Assembly: GCF_003130405.1 (NCBI RefSeq)
Contig: NZ_QEAS01000007.1
Coordinates: forward strand, 89,754 to 146,290
From: Pararcticibacter amylolyticus
GTDB lineage: Bacteria > Bacteroidota > Bacteroidia > Sphingobacteriales > Sphingobacteriaceae
Reading direction: 5' to 3'
Length of the DNA stretch: 56,537 nt
Under the pieces are notes generated by a model that ran no database searches, had not been told where the DNA came from, and saw only the letters and a program-made list of their open reading frames with translations. Of this stretch, positions 4,775 to 11,662 are shown piece by piece (the first letter of the stretch is position 1; the number at the start of each line of letters is the position of its first letter). The translations under genes and the position numbers were made by a program.

Positions 4775-5038
4775 ATGAATATTAGAAAGGCATTACTTTT
4801 TATTATTTGCATTCTTGCGGTCATCTCTATAACATGTAGAAAAGATGTTGATAATAGAGAACGCAAGTCCATTGTCTTTACTTTAGAAGAAGTAAAGGCA
4901 CAATTCCTCAAAAAGAAAATAGAGAAAAAGCTCGTTTACTTGGTAAATGATACAATAACGGCACAATGGGCCCCTGTTTGGACAAATAATTCTTTTTTTA
5001 AAGAGGAATATATATATTCCTCTTCAACAGGTATTTAG
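4775..5038 (+). CDS. Lipoprotein of unknown function, 5' part of a frameshifted gene
   Basis: The reading frame starts with a lipoprotein signal peptide with the lipidation Cys at about residue 21 (ISITCRKD). Then comes a segment FTLEEVKAQFLKKK of a kind seen at the start of Sphingobacteriales cell-surface lipoproteins. The frame stops after 87 codons, just after a run of seven T at 4993-4999. If one T is removed, reading continues into the +1 frame (SFLKRNIYIPLQQVFRVNN) and runs to 5972 without interruption, giving about 398 residues. So this is most likely the front of one larger gene broken by an indel, or by an assembly or sequencing error in the homopolymer. The gene is AT-rich compared with its neighbours, which suggests acquisition. 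Function unknown. Confidence 0.6.
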   Translation: MNIRKALLFIICILAVISITCRKDVDNRERKSIVFTLEEVKAQFLKKKIEKKLVYLVNDTITAQWAPVWTNNSFFKEEYIYSSSTGI

Positions 5039-5165
5039 AGTTAATAACAAAAATAGGATCACTGCTCAAAACGAGACGAAAAGGTATTTAATTGCAAAAA
5101 AAAGTGCTGACACAATACAGTTCTTTTTAGCAAAGTATGTAAATGATCCGTCTGCAGAAAAAAGA

Positions 5166-5972
5166 GTGGGGAAAGAAAGTACAGTAAATTTTAAAGGCTT
5201 TAACGGATTGGCTGTCATATCTTCACTTGACAATGGATCTCAGAGAGCAGTACAATACAAACAAGGGAAAGAAACGACGAGTAAGAAGGCGACTGTAAGT
5301 TCATGTATAAAATGGTATTTTGCTGAATTCTATAGTATCTGTAATGGCCAGAATGATTTTGCAGAAACGTTTTCTCAAAATTCAGTTGCTTGTCCGCAGA
5401 GAGCACCGGCAGGTTATTGCGGTGGATGCGGCTATTGTGGTGTTCCTGGAACTTGTCAATATCCTTGGAGTAAAATATCAGAGATCGTTATAGAAAATTG
5501 TAATAACCCCGATCCTACCAATCCCGATCCAGATCCAAGCGATCCACCTACTAATCCTCCCTTACCTCCCGATAACGGTCTTATATTCGCAAGGTTGGAA
5601 ATGACAACTAATACAACCTCTGGCCATAATGGAGACGATGAATACACAAGAAATTCAGCTCATTTGTACGTGAGATTTTATAAGGATTTTCATTGTACAA
5701 TACCAATAGCCGCAGATCCGTCAATTTCCTTTGGCATAGCTGTTATTTATAGAAGTTCATGGTATAATGGAGGTACGTATAATGAGTCTACAATTACCGC
5801 GAGTAACGCAAATAATAACCAATATCAGTTAGATCTGGGAGTTTATAATACATATGACTATTATAAATATTACGACCTATCAATGGGGTACATGGAAGAG
5901 ATTTCATCATGGGAGTATACCTTGGCGGGAGGGGAAAAATATAACGCAATTTTAAATCCATACTATTACTGA
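5166..5972 (+). CDS. Cys- and Pro-rich lipoprotein of unknown function, 3' part of the frameshifted gene
   Basis: This frame has a formal GTG start at 5166, but it is open back to about 4980 with coherent protein sequence, so 5166 is not a real start. Visible parts are a Cys-rich stretch (residues about 75-100: GYCGGCGYCGVPGTC), a Pro/Asp-rich linker (NPDPTNPDPDPSDPP), then a beta-rich Tyr/Asn-rich C-terminal domain. The Cys cluster could form disulfides outside the cytoplasm, or bind metal; neither is proven. A terminator at 6024-6071 follows, so the unit looks transcribed. One sampled 60-base line here is 25% G+C and another 35%, lower than the flanking genes. No family is recognised. Confidence 0.55.
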   Translation: MGKESTVNFKGFNGLAVISSLDNGSQRAVQYKQGKETTSKKATVSSCIKWYFAEFYSICNGQNDFAETFSQNSVACPQRAPAGYCGGCGYCGVPGTCQYPWSKISEIVIENCNNPDPTNPDPDPSDPPTNPPLPPDNGLIFARLEMTTNTTSGHNGDDEYTRNSAHLYVRFYKDFHCTIPIAADPSISFGIAVIYRSSWYNGGTYNESTITASNANNNQYQLDLGVYNTYDYYKYYDLSMGYMEEISSWEYTLAGGEKYNAILNPYYY

Positions 5973-6457: not shown

Positions 6458-9400
6458 GTGCATCAACTCTCTAAAGATAGCACAGAGTATTTCTTTTGTA
6501 AAAAAACTTACATGAATGTGGAGATTGTAGTGATGAATGCTCGTATTGTGAAGACGAATGAAACATTCATGTATATGGAACAGTTGAAATTTTACCCAAA
6601 ACTCATACTCCGTAGCCCATCAAGGAGTATTGAAGAGTACGCATCCGCTTCACTGGATCAACTCTTGGCAGATCGTGATTTTAAGCAGGCTTTAAAGCAT
6701 GCCAACCCCATGTTCTTCGGACTCCTCTCCAAAAAGGCATTCAACGCAGAGAAGTTGAATGATCAGGAAATTTCTACATTGAAAAAGTATCTGAACAGAA
6801 TGTGCTTCAGGCCTACCCCGTTTGGATTGTTCTCCTCTTTTTCCGTCGTTGATTGGAACGGGGAGAATCTACCGGCCGTTTTTCTAAGAGAACAACAACG
6901 CGTTCATGTGTTGCCTGATCAGATTATCAACCATTTGCTTAATAGCTTGCTGAAGGAAAATACCGATCCTTCCGCACTACATTACAGGAGTAATGTATCA
7001 TGTTATATCATTCACCAGGAGATAAGGTACTTACAAACATGTATTGTAAAAGGTACGATTGAGTATCAACTGCAAAGTGTTCCTGCAAACTTCGTAAACC
7101 GTAAGATCCTGAAATTTTGCGATAAGGGGAGGTCTTTAGCTGAAATTATCAGGTTTTTAATGGAGCAGGTATCCTGTGATTCTGAAGAAGCTCAGCATTA
7201 TTGTGAATTCCTCATAGAAAATGGAATGCTGGTTTCCGCATTCTTTTTTAATGTTACGGGAACTCCTTATTGGTCAAGATTTATTGATAAAGTTAGTGAG
7301 GATACGCCATTGCGTAGTGTGCTTTTGGATCTCGATGAGAAACTGAAATTGTCTGACCTGGATAAGGCCGGTGAAACAGTGAAGAAGCTTATGGCGGTTA
7401 ATGGTTATCCCGAAAGTGAAGAAAAATCACTGTTGTATGTTAATTTTGAAAGAAAAATCACGCCTGGAGGCGGTTTGTCATCCTTTATCCAGCCTCTCAT
7501 TCTGGATGCGATAGACTGTTGTAAACGACTTAGTCTTCCTGCCGTTGCTCCGGATATGACACAGTTTATCCGGCTGTTCAAAGATCGCTATGATTTGCAG
7601 CAGATACCTTTGCTGCAAGTGCTCGACCCGGAAGCTGGTATAGGATATGGAAATACGAATTACGAGGTGCTTCTTTTAAAGGATCTTACTTTTAAAGATC
7701 AGGCTGAAAGTCCCGGAAATAAATGGTCGGACGTACATGTTCTTCTTTTGAAATTATGGAACGAGGGCCGGGTTACAAAAGGAGGACTTCCTTTGATCAT
7801 GATAGACAAAGAAGCCTTGTATGCGCTGCCTGCTTCCGAAAATGTTTCTCTGCCTCCCAGTTCGTCTGTTATCTTCAGACTTACAGGAGAAAACGTTTTT
7901 ATTGAGTCTGCCGGCGGGGCCACTGCGATGCAGCTGGCCGGGCGATTTACCTTGTTTAGTGAAGAGTTGCTGAATGCAATGAGGGATATTGCGCGTGCTG
8001 AAGAAAGACTAAATCCCGAAGTTGTATTTGCAGAAATTATTCACTTAACGGGTGCGCATACCGATAACATCAATTTACGGGAAAATATCTATGAGTTTGA
8101 TCTGATCGTTTCGGGGCAATCGGTATTGCGGCCGGAGAAACAGATATTTTTAAATGATCTCCTTGTTTCAGTGCGAAACAACAAGGTGGTTTTGTATTCC
8201 AGGAGACTTGATAAAGTGATCGTACCCAGACTAAGTTCCGCATATAATTATCGACTTAATGATCTTCCTGTCTTTCGGTTCCTTTGTGACGTTCAAAACC
8301 AGGGTATCCAGCCGAATCTCTCTCTGGATCTTTCCGCTCTTTTCCCCGGATTGGACTTTTATCCCAGGGTAATGTACAAAAATAGTATTTTGTATCCGGC
8401 CACCTGGCGTCTTAAAGAATCAGTGATCCGAAAGATCTTGTCAGCATCTCCTGATGATCAAATTCGGTTATTTAATGAGTTTGCTGATGAAGCTATTTTA
8501 ACTGAATATTTTTCTATTAACCAAAGCGACAGATACCTGGTGTTTAACCGTAAGTCAGAGAATGATATTCGTTTTTTTCTAAAAACTGTAGCTAACAAGG
8601 AGGATGTGATATTGAAGGAGTTTTTTACTCCTGATTCTGCTTTATTTAGCCTGCGGGATGAGCAGAGCAAGTTATACGGACATCAGCTCATATGCTTCCT
8701 GGTAAATGATAAAAACGTATATAACGGAGGTTTTGTAGGGCATGCACCCGCTATTAAAAAGCAAAGACTTTTTTTGCCCGGCAGTGAATGGCTTTATATA
8801 AAAATTTATTGTAAACCCATCGCAGCGAATCATCTGTTAAGTCATGTACTGATGCCGCTTATCAGCAAGAAGCAGCATGCTATAAGTAAATGGTTTTTTA
8901 TACGATACAGTGATCCTCATCCGCATATCCGTTTGAGATTGAAGCTGTTTAATGAAGAGCCGGCTGGCATTATTGGATTTATCAGTAACCGGCTTGAAAA
9001 AGAGATCCATAGTGGTATAATAGTGTCTTATGTAGTGGATGCCTATCAAAGAGAACTTGAACGCTACGGGGCTGCAATAGAACTGGTTGAAGATGTTTTT
9101 CATGAAGGTTCGTTGCTGGTAGCCAGCCTTCTGAGAGGACTTCATGACTTTGAACAGACAGCTACAGAGTATTCTGTCACTTTTGTCAGCCTCTTGAGTT
9201 TGTTTAAATCTGTTAATTCAGATCTCTCCTTTAATATAGATCTTTTTGAAGACTATTATTCGGGCTTGTTTGCAGAATTCAGGGGAAATAAGCTACTAAA
9301 GATACAGCTCGATCAAAAGTACCGGATGTTTAAGAGAGATCTGGAGAGATGGGAGAGGTCGGGAGAAAAAGAGATTTATTCCTTTTCTGCAAGAAAACAT

Positions 9401-9601
9401 CAGCGGAGCTTTAATAAAGCTGTCCGCTTGTTGCTTCAAGCCATTCCCCAAAAGGGATATAAAAAATACCTGTCGGACATGGTACATATGCAGATCAACC
9501 GGATCTTAACTGATGAACATCGTAAGCAGGAACTGGTAATTTCCTATTGTTTGTTTAAGCACTATACGTCTATGTACAAGAGGCAATATCAGGAAGTATG
9601 A
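6458..9601 (+). CDS. LanB-type lantibiotic dehydratase with C-terminal elimination (thiopeptide/SpaB_C) domain
   Basis: The roughly 1047-residue protein is a full-length class I lanthipeptide dehydratase. The N-terminal glutamylation domain (about residues 40-720) carries the family hallmark RPTPFGLFSSFS near residue 127. The C-terminal elimination domain (about 760-1040) carries WFFIRYSDPHPHIRLRLK. By family knowledge it uses glutamyl-tRNA to activate Ser/Thr of a precursor peptide and then eliminates glutamate to give dehydro-residues, in the cytoplasm. No LanC cyclase, protease or ABC exporter is seen in the window. The start is uncertain: GTG 6458 is the longest, but ATG 6533 has a GGAG nine bases ahead, and ATG 6569 or 6575 lies just before the conserved FYPKLILRSP. 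The gene converges on a two-component pair, and a candidate precursor peptide lies at 11495. Confidence 0.9.
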   Translation: MHQLSKDSTEYFFCKKTYMNVEIVVMNARIVKTNETFMYMEQLKFYPKLILRSPSRSIEEYASASLDQLLADRDFKQALKHANPMFFGLLSKKAFNAEKLNDQEISTLKKYLNRMCFRPTPFGLFSSFSVVDWNGENLPAVFLREQQRVHVLPDQIINHLLNSLLKENTDPSALHYRSNVSCYIIHQEIRYLQTCIVKGTIEYQLQSVPANFVNRKILKFCDKGRSLAEIIRFLMEQVSCDSEEAQHYCEFLIENGMLVSAFFFNVTGTPYWSRFIDKVSEDTPLRSVLLDLDEKLKLSDLDKAGETVKKLMAVNGYPESEEKSLLYVNFERKITPGGGLSSFIQPLILDAIDCCKRLSLPAVAPDMTQFIRLFKDRYDLQQIPLLQVLDPEAGIGYGNTNYEVLLLKDLTFKDQAESPGNKWSDVHVLLLKLWNEGRVTKGGLPLIMIDKEALYALPASENVSLPPSSSVIFRLTGENVFIESAGGATAMQLAGRFTLFSEELLNAMRDIARAEERLNPEVVFAEIIHLTGAHTDNINLRENIYEFDLIVSGQSVLRPEKQIFLNDLLVSVRNNKVVLYSRRLDKVIVPRLSSAYNYRLNDLPVFRFLCDVQNQGIQPNLSLDLSALFPGLDFYPRVMYKNSILYPATWRLKESVIRKILSASPDDQIRLFNEFADEAILTEYFSINQSDRYLVFNRKSENDIRFFLKTVANKEDVILKEFFTPDSALFSLRDEQSKLYGHQLICFLVNDKNVYNGGFVGHAPAIKKQRLFLPGSEWLYIKIYCKPIAANHLLSHVLMPLISKKQHAISKWFFIRYSDPHPHIRLRLKLFNEEPAGIIGFISNRLEKEIHSGIIVSYVVDAYQRELERYGAAIELVEDVFHEGSLLVASLLRGLHDFEQTATEYSVTFVSLLSLFKSVNSDLSFNIDLFEDYYSGLFAEFRGNKLLKIQLDQKYRMFKRDLERWERSGEKEIYSFSARKHQRSFNKAVRLLLQAIPQKGYKKYLSDMVHMQINRILTDEHRKQELVISYCLFKHYTSMYKRQYQEV

Positions 9602-9605
9602 CACG

Positions 9606-10334
9606 TTAAATCTTCCTTTTTGAGTTAAGAAGCCGTTTTGACAACTTTTCCAGAAACGGTATTCTAAAGGTAGTGCCGATATCGATTTTTTCTCCGTTTA
9701 CAAGAAATATGCGGTTGCCTTCTACTGCTTTAATTTTCCGGTTGTTAATGATTGTCGATTTGTGTACACGTGAAAAATGCTCCTCCGGGAGAAATTGTTC
9801 AATTTCAGCCATTGTGAGGTAAACCAGGTGCTTTTCATTTTCCAGATTGATCTCTATGTAGTTTCCTTCGGATTTTACGAAAACAATCTCGGCAAATTCA
9901 AATCGTATGATTTTTCCTTTAAACTCACTTTTTGCAAAAAAGAAGTCCTCCTCTTTTGGAGGACTTGCTGTTTCTTTAGAAGCAAGGTGCTTCCTTGCTT
10001 TTTGTATGCTCTTTAAAAATCGCTGATACTGAACCGGCTTTACAAGGAAGTCGAACGCTTCTTTTTCAAACGCCTGTACTGCAAATCGGGGATGCGCCGT
10101 TGTAAAGATGATCAGGCTGTATACAGAAACATATCCGGCAAACTCCAGCCCGGAAAGCTGCGGCATATCTACATCAGCAAAAATGACATCGGGAAAATGA
10201 GTTTTGCCGATCTCACTTAATGCATGTAGTGGATTGGTTGTCGTACCAATCAATTTAAGCCCATCAGTCTTCCCTATATACTCTTCCAGAATTTCAATAG
10301 CATGAAATTCGTCATCCACTATGTAACAAGTCAT
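9606..10334 (-). CDS. LytTR-family response regulator
   Basis: The 242-residue protein has a receiver domain (1-120) with acidic pocket DDE at 7-9, phospho-acceptor Asp54 in FADVDMP and the conserved Lys of FLVKPV. A C-terminal LytTR DNA-binding domain (about 140-238) includes FVKSEGNYIEI and HKSTIINNRKI. It follows the histidine kinase by four bases, so the two form an operon. It ends four bases from the end of the convergent LanB gene. The likely role is controlling nearby promoters; the LanB gene or the small peptide gene are natural candidates, but no LytTR site was identified. Confidence 0.93.
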   Translation of the reverse strand: MTCYIVDDEFHAIEILEEYIGKTDGLKLIGTTTNPLHALSEIGKTHFPDVIFADVDMPQLSGLEFAGYVSVYSLIIFTTAHPRFAVQAFEKEAFDFLVKPVQYQRFLKSIQKARKHLASKETASPPKEEDFFFAKSEFKGKIIRFEFAEIVFVKSEGNYIEINLENEKHLVYLTMAEIEQFLPEEHFSRVHKSTIINNRKIKAVEGNRIFLVNGEKIDIGTTFRIPFLEKLSKRLLNSKRKI

Positions 10335-10338
10335 GTTT

Positions 10339-11394
10339 CTATAAAGATAGTTTTAATTCAGTAAAGAAAATTGATCCTTCTTTTTTTGTTTCCAAATGAA
10401 ACCTTTCCGGGTAATGCGTGGCGAGCCGGGTCTTCACATTGCTTAATCCAATGTTTCTTCCCGGAAGAGGATGTGAAGGCCTGATTTTATTCCTGCTTGT
10501 AAACGATAGTTCGTCGTTGTTTACGCTTATTTCAATTAATGCCGGGTTTTTATGGTCTGTCAGGTCGCCGTGTTTATAGATGTTTTCAACAAGGGTAAGA
10601 AGGATGAGTGGAGGTACTCTGATATCTTCAAAATCTCCGTTGAAATTTGCGTCTACATATAATTGATTTCTGAACCGAAGCTGGTTTAACTTCAGGAAGT
10701 TTTCAATTTGTTCAACTTCCTGATCAAGGTGAGTCTTGTTATCATCACTGATGTCTTCCAGTGAATACTGCATGAGTTGGGATAGCAGCATGATGCATTC
10801 TGCGGCTTCGGCAGAAGTACGTCTGACACTGTTATAGATAAAATTAAGAGTATTGAAGAGTAAGTGAGGATTGATCTGGGATTGTAGAAAGGCGTTTTCT
10901 GCTTTTATGAGGTTCTTTTCTACTTCCAGTTTGTGTTTTTCTGCATCGCTGAGTTTTTTTCTGTAATCGAGGAGGTACTTTGCGGCGCTGTATCCTATAC
11001 TGAATGTCATAAACTGAACACCTCTGGTAAGATTTCTAAAAACGTGTTCCCAGTCGGTCTCTTTCTTTCGTTGTACAGGGTAATATCCCATTACATAATA
11101 ATCCATAACCGTTTTTACAGCGAGATAAAGGATCAGCCCTAAGAGTGTTAATACTATAAATACATAAGGTGCTTTTGATTTGGAGAAACAATACTCCAGA
11201 ATACAAAAAGAACTGAAATAAAAATATCCAATGTTTAAAATGTAATATGCAATATAAGTGGAGGGGCCATAAATAAAGGAACCGAAGCTGATATAGATAC
11301 TGAGTAATTCATAGATGATGAAAATTGTCCAGACTAGTAAATGTTGAATATATGTTTGCCGGAGGAGCTCTCTGAATTGTTTTCTTTTTGTCAT
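10339..11394 (-). CDS. LytS/YehU-type sensor histidine kinase
   Basis: The 351-residue protein has four hydrophobic segments in residues about 18-95 plus one at 125-140, a short coiled coil (148-168), and a His_kinase domain with the phospho-acceptor His177 in QINPHLLFNTL. The ATP-binding part has LVENIYKHGD and GRNIGLSNVKTRL. It lacks a large extracellular sensor domain, so it probably senses within or at the membrane. It is the first gene of the kinase/regulator operon and is transcribed divergently from the 46-codon peptide gene, sharing the 100-base intergenic region with it. Confidence 0.92.
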   Translation of the reverse strand: MTKRKQFRELLRQTYIQHLLVWTIFIIYELLSIYISFGSFIYGPSTYIAYYILNIGYFYFSSFCILEYCFSKSKAPYVFIVLTLLGLILYLAVKTVMDYYVMGYYPVQRKKETDWEHVFRNLTRGVQFMTFSIGYSAAKYLLDYRKKLSDAEKHKLEVEKNLIKAENAFLQSQINPHLLFNTLNFIYNSVRRTSAEAAECIMLLSQLMQYSLEDISDDNKTHLDQEVEQIENFLKLNQLRFRNQLYVDANFNGDFEDIRVPPLILLTLVENIYKHGDLTDHKNPALIEISVNNDELSFTSRNKIRPSHPLPGRNIGLSNVKTRLATHYPERFHLETKKEGSIFFTELKLSL

Positions 11395-11494
11395 TGAAAT
11401 GTAATCACACTGGTTTCATCTTTCTAAACCTTACGCTCGTGTAAAAAAATTTTCTGACAGAGCATAAGCCATCAACTTGGGAAAAAGCAAAATT

Positions 11495-11635
11495 ATGAAA
11501 AAGCTCAATTCCAAGAAACTGGTTTGTAAGGCAACCGTTCGTTTTAAATTTAAGGGGAAATCGATTACTAACAGTTTTAACTTTCCGACTGATCCAACAA
11601 ATCCCACTGTTACAAGTAGTAGTCTTGTATATTGA
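11495..11635 (+). CDS. Small Ser/Thr-rich peptide, candidate RiPP precursor
   Basis: A 46-codon gene starts with MKKLNSKKLVCKATVRF, and its C-terminal half (TDPTNPTVTSSSLVY) is rich in Thr, Ser and Pro. Evidence that it is real: a GGGAAAAAG purine stretch ahead of the ATG, a basic N-terminus typical of leader peptides, a compact hairpin terminator nine bases after the stop, and a position divergent from the regulator pair beside a LanB dehydratase. Its only Cys is residue 11, in the likely leader, so it could not form lanthionine in the C-terminal core; dehydration without cyclisation, or another role, would be needed. No GG cleavage site or FNLD box is present. The assignment as LanB substrate is inference. 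Confidence 0.55.
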   Translation: MKKLNSKKLVCKATVRFKFKGKSITNSFNFPTDPTNPTVTSSSLVY

Positions 11636-11643
11636 TATTAAAT

Positions 11644-11662
11644 AAATCCTGCGAGGATTTTT
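11644..11662 (+). terminator. Short intrinsic terminator after the small peptide gene
   Basis: AAATCCT (11644-11650), loop GCG, AGGATTT (11654-11660) and a short T-tail. A 7-bp stem is modest, but its position right after a small open frame is telling. Confidence 0.5.

Follow-up and report, generated by a model that had tools for sequence, protein, structure and literature searches.

A LanB dehydratase, a LytTR two-component pair and a small peptide gene: a probable peptide signalling unit in Pararcticibacter amylolyticus

Described relatives and the four-gene locus

Class I lanthipeptide clusters, such as those of nisin (NisABTCIPRK) and, in Bacteroidota, of PedA15 and pinensin, encode a full-length LanB dehydratase and a short precursor with a charged leader and a Ser/Thr-rich core; in the case of nisin, a two-component system of the OmpR/HisKA type (NisRK) is induced by the product. 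The ComCDE, BlpRH and AgrBDCA systems of Firmicutes consist of a small peptide, a membrane kinase and a LytTR regulator. Here we examined a stretch of 56,537 nucleotides of Pararcticibacter amylolyticus (contig NZ_QEAS01000007.1, positions 89,754 to 146,290; the whole stretch is called the window), in which four genes form the locus of interest: a LanB, a LytTR response regulator, a histidine kinase of the PF06580 type and a 46-codon peptide gene (Table 1). Rather than an antibiotic cluster that has broken down, this four-gene unit is probably a circuit for peptide signalling that has not been described before.

The LanB open reading frame (ORF) spans 6458-9601 on the plus strand and can also be read from a GTG at 6458; the likely start is the ATG at 6575, where the first Met of the homologue in a relative, genome G044, aligns. 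The protein matches Pfam Lant_dehydr_N (E 8e-81) and Lant_dehydr_C (E 8e-52). Counted by hand from an alignment with NisB, the catalytic positions R83, R87, T89, H782, R784, R786, E823 and R826 (NisB numbering) are all present, as are the residues that we take to be the equivalents of R14 and H961. The regulator and kinase genes run in the same direction, tail to tail with LanB. The N-terminal third of the kinase is hydrophobic, with two strong segments at residues 19-37 and 78-96, and counting of transmembrane segments by hydropathy, a noisy procedure, was used solely for this statement. The peptide (MKKLNSKKLVCKATVRFKFKGKSITNSFNFPTDPTNPTVTSSSLVY) has a Lys-rich first half and a Ser/Thr-rich second half with TDPT; its only Cys is residue 11 and its core, TDPTNPTVTSSSLVY, is Cys-free. 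The genome holds a single LanB and a single copy of the peptide, a second match (E 2.1) being unrelated. These results agree with the initial annotation of the locus, which had described a complete LanB-type dehydratase, a kinase/regulator pair convergent with it and a peptide gene divergent from the kinase, with no LanC, protease or exporter in the window. Neither LanC nor a C39 exporter is encoded there; the whole-genome matches to these two lie on other contigs.

Table 1. Features of the four-gene locus (positions in the window)
Feature	Position	Strand	Basis or context
LanB dehydratase, full-length, 1008 aa, glutamylation and elimination domains	6575..9601	+	Pfam, alignment
LytTR-family response regulator, 242 aa	9606..10334	-	Pfam Response_reg and LytTR
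Histidine kinase, PF06580 type, 351 aa	10339..11394	-	Pfam His_kinase
Precursor-like peptide gene, 46 codons	11495..11635	+	Divergent from kinase; family members in same slot elsewhere
Putative LytTR operator, proximal half-site GTGTAAAAA	11439..11447	+	56 bp upstream of peptide ATG

With class I lanthipeptides the locus shares the LanB with the same catalytic positions and the build of the precursor, but it has no adjacent LanC, LanT/C39 exporter or protease, the window core has no Cys, and the LytTR regulator and PF06580 kinase are not of the NisRK type. By eye, neither FxLD nor LxLxKx5L, the class I leader motifs given in the retrieved portion of Walker et al. 2020 (PMC7268733), is present in the window peptide. 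For lack of LanC, of Cys and of the leader motif, the cassette thus does not belong to the class I lanthipeptides. According to the same portion of that study, ORFs without Cys in the estimated core were discarded, so that mining of this type would miss most of the peptide family described below.

With ComCDE, BlpRH and AgrBDCA the cassette shares the small peptide, the membrane kinase, the LytTR regulator and, in some relatives, bacteriocin-like genes behind the operator. The 9-12-9 geometry of their operators (PMC6193735, in the text available) is seen in a repeat at the peptide promoter across 15 lineages of relatives, but only weakly in the window itself. The cassette differs in that the window peptide has no double-glycine (GG) leader and no AgrB-type partner, in that a dehydratase is added as the usual fourth part, and in that the hosts are Gram-negative. 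Peptide processing and kinase type set it apart from the Com/Agr systems, yet it looks as if built like one of them with a class I lanthipeptide enzyme. The available part of PMC8895600 reports no conserved domain other than HATPase_c or HATPase_c_5 for the LytTR-family kinases studied there, whereas the kinase of the cassette belongs to PF06580. The LytTR Regulatory Systems HdrRM and BrsRM likewise have autoregulated LytTR regulators, the same repeat geometry and bacteriocin regulons, but they use a membrane inhibitor, and the excerpt of PMC6193735 at hand mentions no peptide gene and no enzyme of ribosomally synthesised and post-translationally modified peptides (RiPPs). Among the literature matches listed, with most subscription journals outside coverage, no unit of LanB, LytTR and Cys-free peptide was described, and there is a fair chance that the cassette is a new signalling class.

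Recurrence of the unit and its LanB

A search with the single peptide sequence in 301 genomes of the family gave matches in 23, of which seven were kept (the organism's own, G044, G081, G193, G244, G245 and G287); the other 16 were dropped by eye, many of them having in-frame stops or lying inside long frames. In G044, which belongs to another genus, the four genes including the peptide match (L021) stand in identical order and on identical strands, with identities to the window of 34% for LanB, 44% for the regulator, 31% for the kinase and 53% for the peptide. Across 400 sampled genomes of the order, a profile made from two LanBs found LanB in 230 (E ≤ 1e-40), a seven-peptide profile gave peptide-like matches in 127 (E ≤ 0.05, the weak ones unchecked), and LANC_like was found in 115.

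Eighty neighbourhoods were hand-picked, 20 by peptide match, 20 mainly by best LanB score, 20 from the middle and 20 from the lower range; one of the best-score group (L143) was taken because a single contig held both LanB and peptide matches. The first 40, together with the window and L044, form a set of 42 loci in which the broadly common families of ORFs of at least 90 aa were the regulator (42 loci), the kinase (42) and LanB (32). A 129-aa REC-like ORF came next, with 12 loci, and the remaining families occur in at most nine, several of them deriving from syntenic flanks of close relatives; C39/ABC is found in four. No further gene family was constant in the 42 loci, no search being aimed at YcaO or linaridin enzymes. 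Dehydrated Thr/Ser without lanthionine rings would be a trait common to the cassette and to linaridins and thiopeptides, of which the former use other dehydratases and the latter a split LanB plus YcaO.

The partners of LanB were counted for 72 genes of the family that were clear of contig or fetch edges. Kinase and regulator both lie within 2.5 kb of 57 of them (11 being the window, L044 and peptide-selected loci), with LanC beside none within the same distance and a C39/ABC match within 4 kb of four. Eight others have LanC, seven of these also a C39 exporter, and none has the pair beside it; the last seven lack both LanC and a complete pair, although part of a regulator is present in L171 and a kinase in L186. 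Three of 15 loci from named genomes (L008, L009 and L010) also carry the pair without LanC. In a LanB tree of 81 rows, built by a quick method, one side is made of 59 rows, 56 with the pair, three without it and none with LanC; a subset of 58 rows has a support of 100, and the window LanB falls in the 59-row group on a long branch. The opposite side holds the seven LanC rows and those of the named Chitinophaga, Dyadobacter and Emticicia genomes; six rows with the pair are found there too (L189, L198 and L008-L011). The gene order in the 56 pair-bearing clade loci, with RR for response regulator and HK for histidine kinase, is LanB> <RR <HK in 40 and LanB> <HK <RR in 12, two of the latter having a further regulator; the other four differ or lack a full-length kinase. 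In the second layout, peptides lie between the kinase and regulator genes.

The NisB-mapped positions are invariant in all 56 pair-bearing clade LanBs, T89 excepted (53/56). As the catalytic residues are kept across the clade, dehydration by LanB is expected, and the enzyme likely acts as a dehydratase on the peptide; lanthionine rings are not expected since the core has no Cys and LanC is missing. Comparison of sequences thus shows a four-part unit that recurs, with intact LanB residues and no LanC beside the LanBs of the clade. The synteny comparison suggested in the initial annotation finds LanB, LytTR pair and peptide together in relatives: LanBs of this clade are not set beside unrelated precursors with an unconserved peptide frame. 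A minimal dehydroamino-acid RiPP system, one of the possibilities raised there, gains support from the recurrence of the peptide family and of synteny. The two-component pair, however, is a partner no less constant than the peptide, a point that had been overlooked there and that suggests signalling.

Two observations on LanB loci may be added. At L137:3207-6215 and L140:3347-6364, a second, very divergent LanB is encoded just upstream of the pair-linked one, on a long tree branch and without LanC or its own two-component pair. Outside the family, Chitinophaga silvatica and C. terrae have a Thr-rich Cys-free peptide (L008:9117-9323 and L009:9168-9368) in an HK-RR-peptide-REC-LanB run on one strand, which is the theme of the cassette in another layout.

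An ordinary class I lanthipeptide cluster, the LanC and exporter of which were lost by decay or are encoded elsewhere, would agree with what the genome holds on other contigs. A whole-genome search returned one LANC_like match, on contig C101, and one C39 peptidase match, on contig C86. The former is over the family cut-off (E 8e-6, 26.6 bits) but partial: the 330-aa protein is matched over profile positions 6-69 of 350 only, in its N-terminal part, and its gene (L296) adjoins a glycosyltransferase-like gene. The zinc triad of LanC (C-gap-CH), as described in the retrieved part of PMC10352776, was not seen in it by eye. The C39 match belongs to a type I secretion operon, and no cassette gene was seen in the first 9 kb of that contig. 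Cys in the cores of some relatives (6 of 32, see below) and the union of pair, LanC and exporter in L011 also speak for such a cluster. Against it, not one of the 57 LanBs linked to the pair has LanC beside it, and this division follows a supported split of the LanB tree; the window core is Cys-free, and LanB positions and peptide are maintained; and, assuming that the searches of the order share the same 400 genomes, G044 and 12 of the 18 genomes behind L124-L143 are not among the 115 with LanC. We consider this explanation very unlikely and already largely refuted. Decay, which the initial annotation had entertained, was rejected as catalytic positions, synteny and peptide are conserved; its idea of parts encoded elsewhere holds weakly at best, and a LanC elsewhere in the genome was rejected given the partial C101 match, the unseen triad and the glycosyltransferase-like neighbour. 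On C86, the C39 ABC exporter forms a run with membrane-fusion, TolC-like and UDP-galactopyranose-mutase-like genes (L295, names by eye), and this run and the C101 genes are perhaps pieces of one glycosylated GG-peptide cluster.

The peptide family and its promoter

In 50 of the 56 clade loci, a relaxed automatic scan, made without a control, picked up a small ORF that is rich in Thr and Ser and divergent from the kinase. Four more (L128, L138, L179 and L184) have a peptide candidate, which brings the count to 54, and the two without one (L125 and L169) have what looks like a broken kinase frame. By a strict Thr-rich/Lys-leader criterion, fixed after the family had been seen, a divergent peptide ORF accompanies 32 of 55 kinase genes compared with 0 of 419 other genes in the loci. 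With these counts and the relative in the same slot of G044, the window peptide is, as judged by comparison, more than a chance ORF. The 32 strict peptides have on average 9.75 Ser+Thr in the last 26 residues and 5.8 Lys+Arg in the first 20, with cores such as DPTNTTITVLTTVS (L124) and DPTTITTVTVTH (L130); Cys in the last 26 residues is absent from 26, single in five and double in one. A subfamily with a core-initial Cys (CSGGTVDTTTITTTTGF type; L131:7050-7184, L142:6303-6437 and L179:6502-6642) is an exception to the Cys-free rule. Searched against NCBIfam up to E 1, the window peptide and those of five relatives had no match, nor had three of the relatives' peptides against Pfam up to E 0.01; the peptides of the family look unannotated. 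Core differences between near strains are small, for instance one M to L, and no specificity groups (pherotypes) are therefore claimed.

Tandem arrays of five to six peptide copies each were found in L115, L121, L122 and L123. Their synonymous/nonsynonymous codon differences, counted over pairs that are not independent events, are 87/8, 93/8, 56/0 and 119/14 in the core, with three, two, one and three distinct core proteins, respectively, versus 44/78, 35/61, 43/77 and 59/69, mostly nonsynonymous, in the leader. Because core changes are mostly synonymous, the frames appear to be translated and a near-single core kept in four of six arrays; by this comparison, selection is seen to maintain the predicted core in most arrays.

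LanB might instead act on an unlinked precursor, with the peptide ORF serving as a regulatory leader ORF for the kinase and regulator. The position of peptides between these two genes in the second layout would suit this, as would the absence of LanB near ten of the 20 peptide-selected loci. The peptide is, however, divergent from the kinase and has its own operator in many lineages, its Lys-rich leader and Thr-rich core resemble a RiPP precursor, and it occurs in up to six copies, with the core held by synonymous change in four arrays. Of the alternatives weighed here we regard this one as the least probable.

Upstream of the peptide ATG, the motif GYGTAAYAA occurs exactly in 18 of 55 kinase-peptide intergenics (which include close relatives and loci without adjacent LanB), 46-72 bp from the ATG, compared with 0 of 55 on the other strand and a mean of 0.3 (maximum 2) in shuffles; within one mismatch, which is how the window half-site fits, it is found in 30. 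For 15 lineages picked by eye among these 30, the self-similarity of a 10-nt half-site peaks exactly 21 bp upstream, at 4.87/10 versus 2.0-3.5 at the other spacings from 14 to 31, a peak that none of 2000 single-base shuffles of the upstream DNA reached at any spacing; without the KLK-leader lineage the value is 4.71, again reached by 0/2000. Direct repeats of 9 bp, in most cases separated by 12 bp, make up LytTR operators (PMC6193735, in the part retrieved). Comparison across the 15 lineages thus shows the 9-12-9 geometry of a LytTR operator in the peptide-promoter repeat, a candidate site that the LytTR regulator of the cassette would bind. The repeat of the G400/G014 type reads TTGGTATA-N13-TTGGTGTAAYAA. 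An operator at the LanB promoter was rejected, with one exact site in 56 promoters (chance 0.35) and 12 of 56 within one mismatch (shuffled mean 7.05, maximum 13).

The peptide promoter is the one place where TTGGTRTA-N13-TTGGTGTAAYAAC, the full operator, occurs without a mismatch in six g15 genomes, which had all been selected for a single peptide subfamily. A slightly shorter pattern is exact in eight of the 149 genomes of the genus to which G014 belongs; all eight are among the 12 that have a strong match to the peptide (E ≤ 2e-12; at E ≤ 1e-3 there are 16 such genomes), a link that is partly circular because the operator was taken from those promoters. Away from a peptide, the 149 genomes hold 11 sites with no more than one mismatch: five in G400, three in G014 and a single one in each of G372, G380 and G212, three genomes not matched to the peptide. 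Two relatives have the repeat before bacteriocin-like and RiPP genes as well, and one of them before an exporter.

The genes behind operators of up to three mismatches include those of bacteriocin-like peptides with a GG leader (L226, L238 and L239; that of L238, the one tested, matches NCBIfam leader_Chryseo below the threshold). A C39-VKOR-thioredoxin protein with a GG peptide after it was recognised by Pfam in L227 and by likeness in L229, and L227 also has a C39 ABC exporter and a membrane-fusion-like partner. In L228 (by Pfam, E 1e-105) and L231 (by likeness), an MbnB/TglH/ChrH enzyme lies two genes onward, next to a small Cys-rich protein. Four of the six genomes have a glucosamine-6-phosphate-deaminase-like gene (by eye; L225, L230, L232 and L236), its ATG 550-660 bp away, and a 1250-1295-aa protein (L237, L240) and helix-turn-helix-like genes (L233, L241) complete the list. 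Such sites number 3-13 per genome versus 1-5 for reversed-pattern controls, and single weak sites may therefore be chance. The operator-linked genes of L225-L242 (g15 genomes G400, G014, G230, G281 and G371) are a candidate social regulon. In G400, about 3 kb from the real peptide (L218, C1:3427949), a second operator precedes a short frame starting MKTSGNTRF, which resembles a decayed copy of the peptide leader and is followed by a phage-tail-collar-like protein.

Operators before bacteriocin-like genes would also be expected if the dehydrated, ring-free peptide were itself the effector, as an antimicrobial or a thiol-attacking electrophile, and the two-component system only controlled its production in response to another cue. 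The intact LanB positions, the peptide as the coding output common to 54 of 56 loci, and multi-copy arrays that could serve dose are in line with this. No immunity or export family recurs, however (C39/ABC as counted above), four of six arrays keep nearly one core with no diversification, and the kinase and regulator stay beside the peptide even in the peptide-selected loci that have no LanB. An effector role seems to us a serious but rather unlikely explanation.

LanB enzymes such as NisB and MibB use glutamyl-tRNA, and a cytoplasmic peptide could report glutamyl-tRNA supply or LanB activity to the kinase as an intracellular check circuit with no export, in keeping with the lack of an exporter or leader protease that recurs with the cassette. 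We know of no precedent for such a circuit, and cell-cell signalling is the better fit for the operators that relatives have before genes of secreted peptides and exporters; we judge it quite improbable.

The proposed signalling cassette

On balance, and with modest confidence, we favour the view that the four genes form a self-contained signalling cassette around a LanB dehydratase, in which a ring-free peptide feeds its own two-component system. LanB would glutamylate and eliminate Ser/Thr in the Cys-free C-terminal half of the peptide, giving a linear peptide with dehydroalanine and dehydrobutyrine in which no lanthionine rings are possible. The mature peptide or a fragment would be the ligand of the neighbouring kinase, which would drive the LytTR regulator; the regulator would bind the 9-12-9 direct repeat at the peptide promoter and raise peptide expression, and in some relatives the operator would also drive bacteriocin-like, RiPP and exporter genes. 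Dehydration itself, export, the sensing of the peptide by the kinase and the binding of the repeat by this regulator are steps that we infer. That the Bacteroidota hold a whole family of such LanB-dehydrated, ring-free pheromones, autoinducing and in some species switching on a regulon of bacteriocin-like, RiPP and peptidase-exporter genes, is a possibility that we put forward tentatively.

Several observations weigh against a signalling cassette. The cassette has no exporter, protease or GG site, and no exporter or protease family recurs in the 42 loci. Six of the 32 strict peptides have Cys-bearing cores, and the arrays of L118 (6/47) and L120 (62/51) lack the synonymous pattern, their copies being unequal in length, which inflates the nonsynonymous counts. 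Within the window's genus (six genomes) the distribution is patchy: the cassette occurs in this genome only, the peptide search did not find the peptide in the other five, and the one other LanB (G076/L045, 28% identical; LanB in two of six) has neither pair nor LanC beside it. Half of the peptide-selected loci (10/20) have no adjacent LanB, all ten genomes having a LanB match somewhere. PF06580/LytTR pairs are common in Bacteroidota, and their adjacency to LanB therefore does not prove pairing. In Dyadobacter crusticola, outside the family, LanB, two LanCs, the pair and a C39 exporter stand together (L011:5887-19552) in what looks like a canonical class I cluster with Cys-bearing GG precursors plus a LytTR-type pair, so that pair and LanC are not exclusive everywhere. 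At the promoter, a half-site within one mismatch is missing from 25 of the 55 intergenics; in the window only the proximal half-site is convincing, the distal one, 21 bp upstream, matching at 4/10 (by eye), and the operator there is suggestive only because that half is poor. A wider regulon appears convincing only in G400 (13 sites versus 1 in the control), less so in G014 (6 versus 3).

A grasp-with-spasm-like cluster adjoins the cassette at L044:10411-15185 (C39 exporter, SPASM, ATP-grasp and GG precursor, names by eye). A graspetide of this kind as the product was rejected, relatives of its SPASM and ATP-grasp proteins being found in three of 42 loci only (L044, L116 and L117), in L044 beside their own GG precursor. 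In the window itself, two ORFs in different frames at 4775-5972 (87 and 268 aa) resemble one frameshifted lipoprotein-type gene, and a long glycan-foraging stretch (13886-56526, by eye from ORF translations) adjoins the cassette, with SusC/D pairs, two alpha-N-acetylglucosaminidase-like genes and a MurQ-like gene.

If the signalling cassette is real, LanB enzymes have a second job, the making of linear dehydro-peptides that work with a dedicated kinase, and RiPP chemistry would here make a signal instead of an antibiotic. The promoter motif would help to read regulons from genomes, and the role of LanBs without LanC would become directly testable. For this Gram-negative group, the cassette would be a candidate for peptide quorum sensing, analogous to Com, Blp and Agr.

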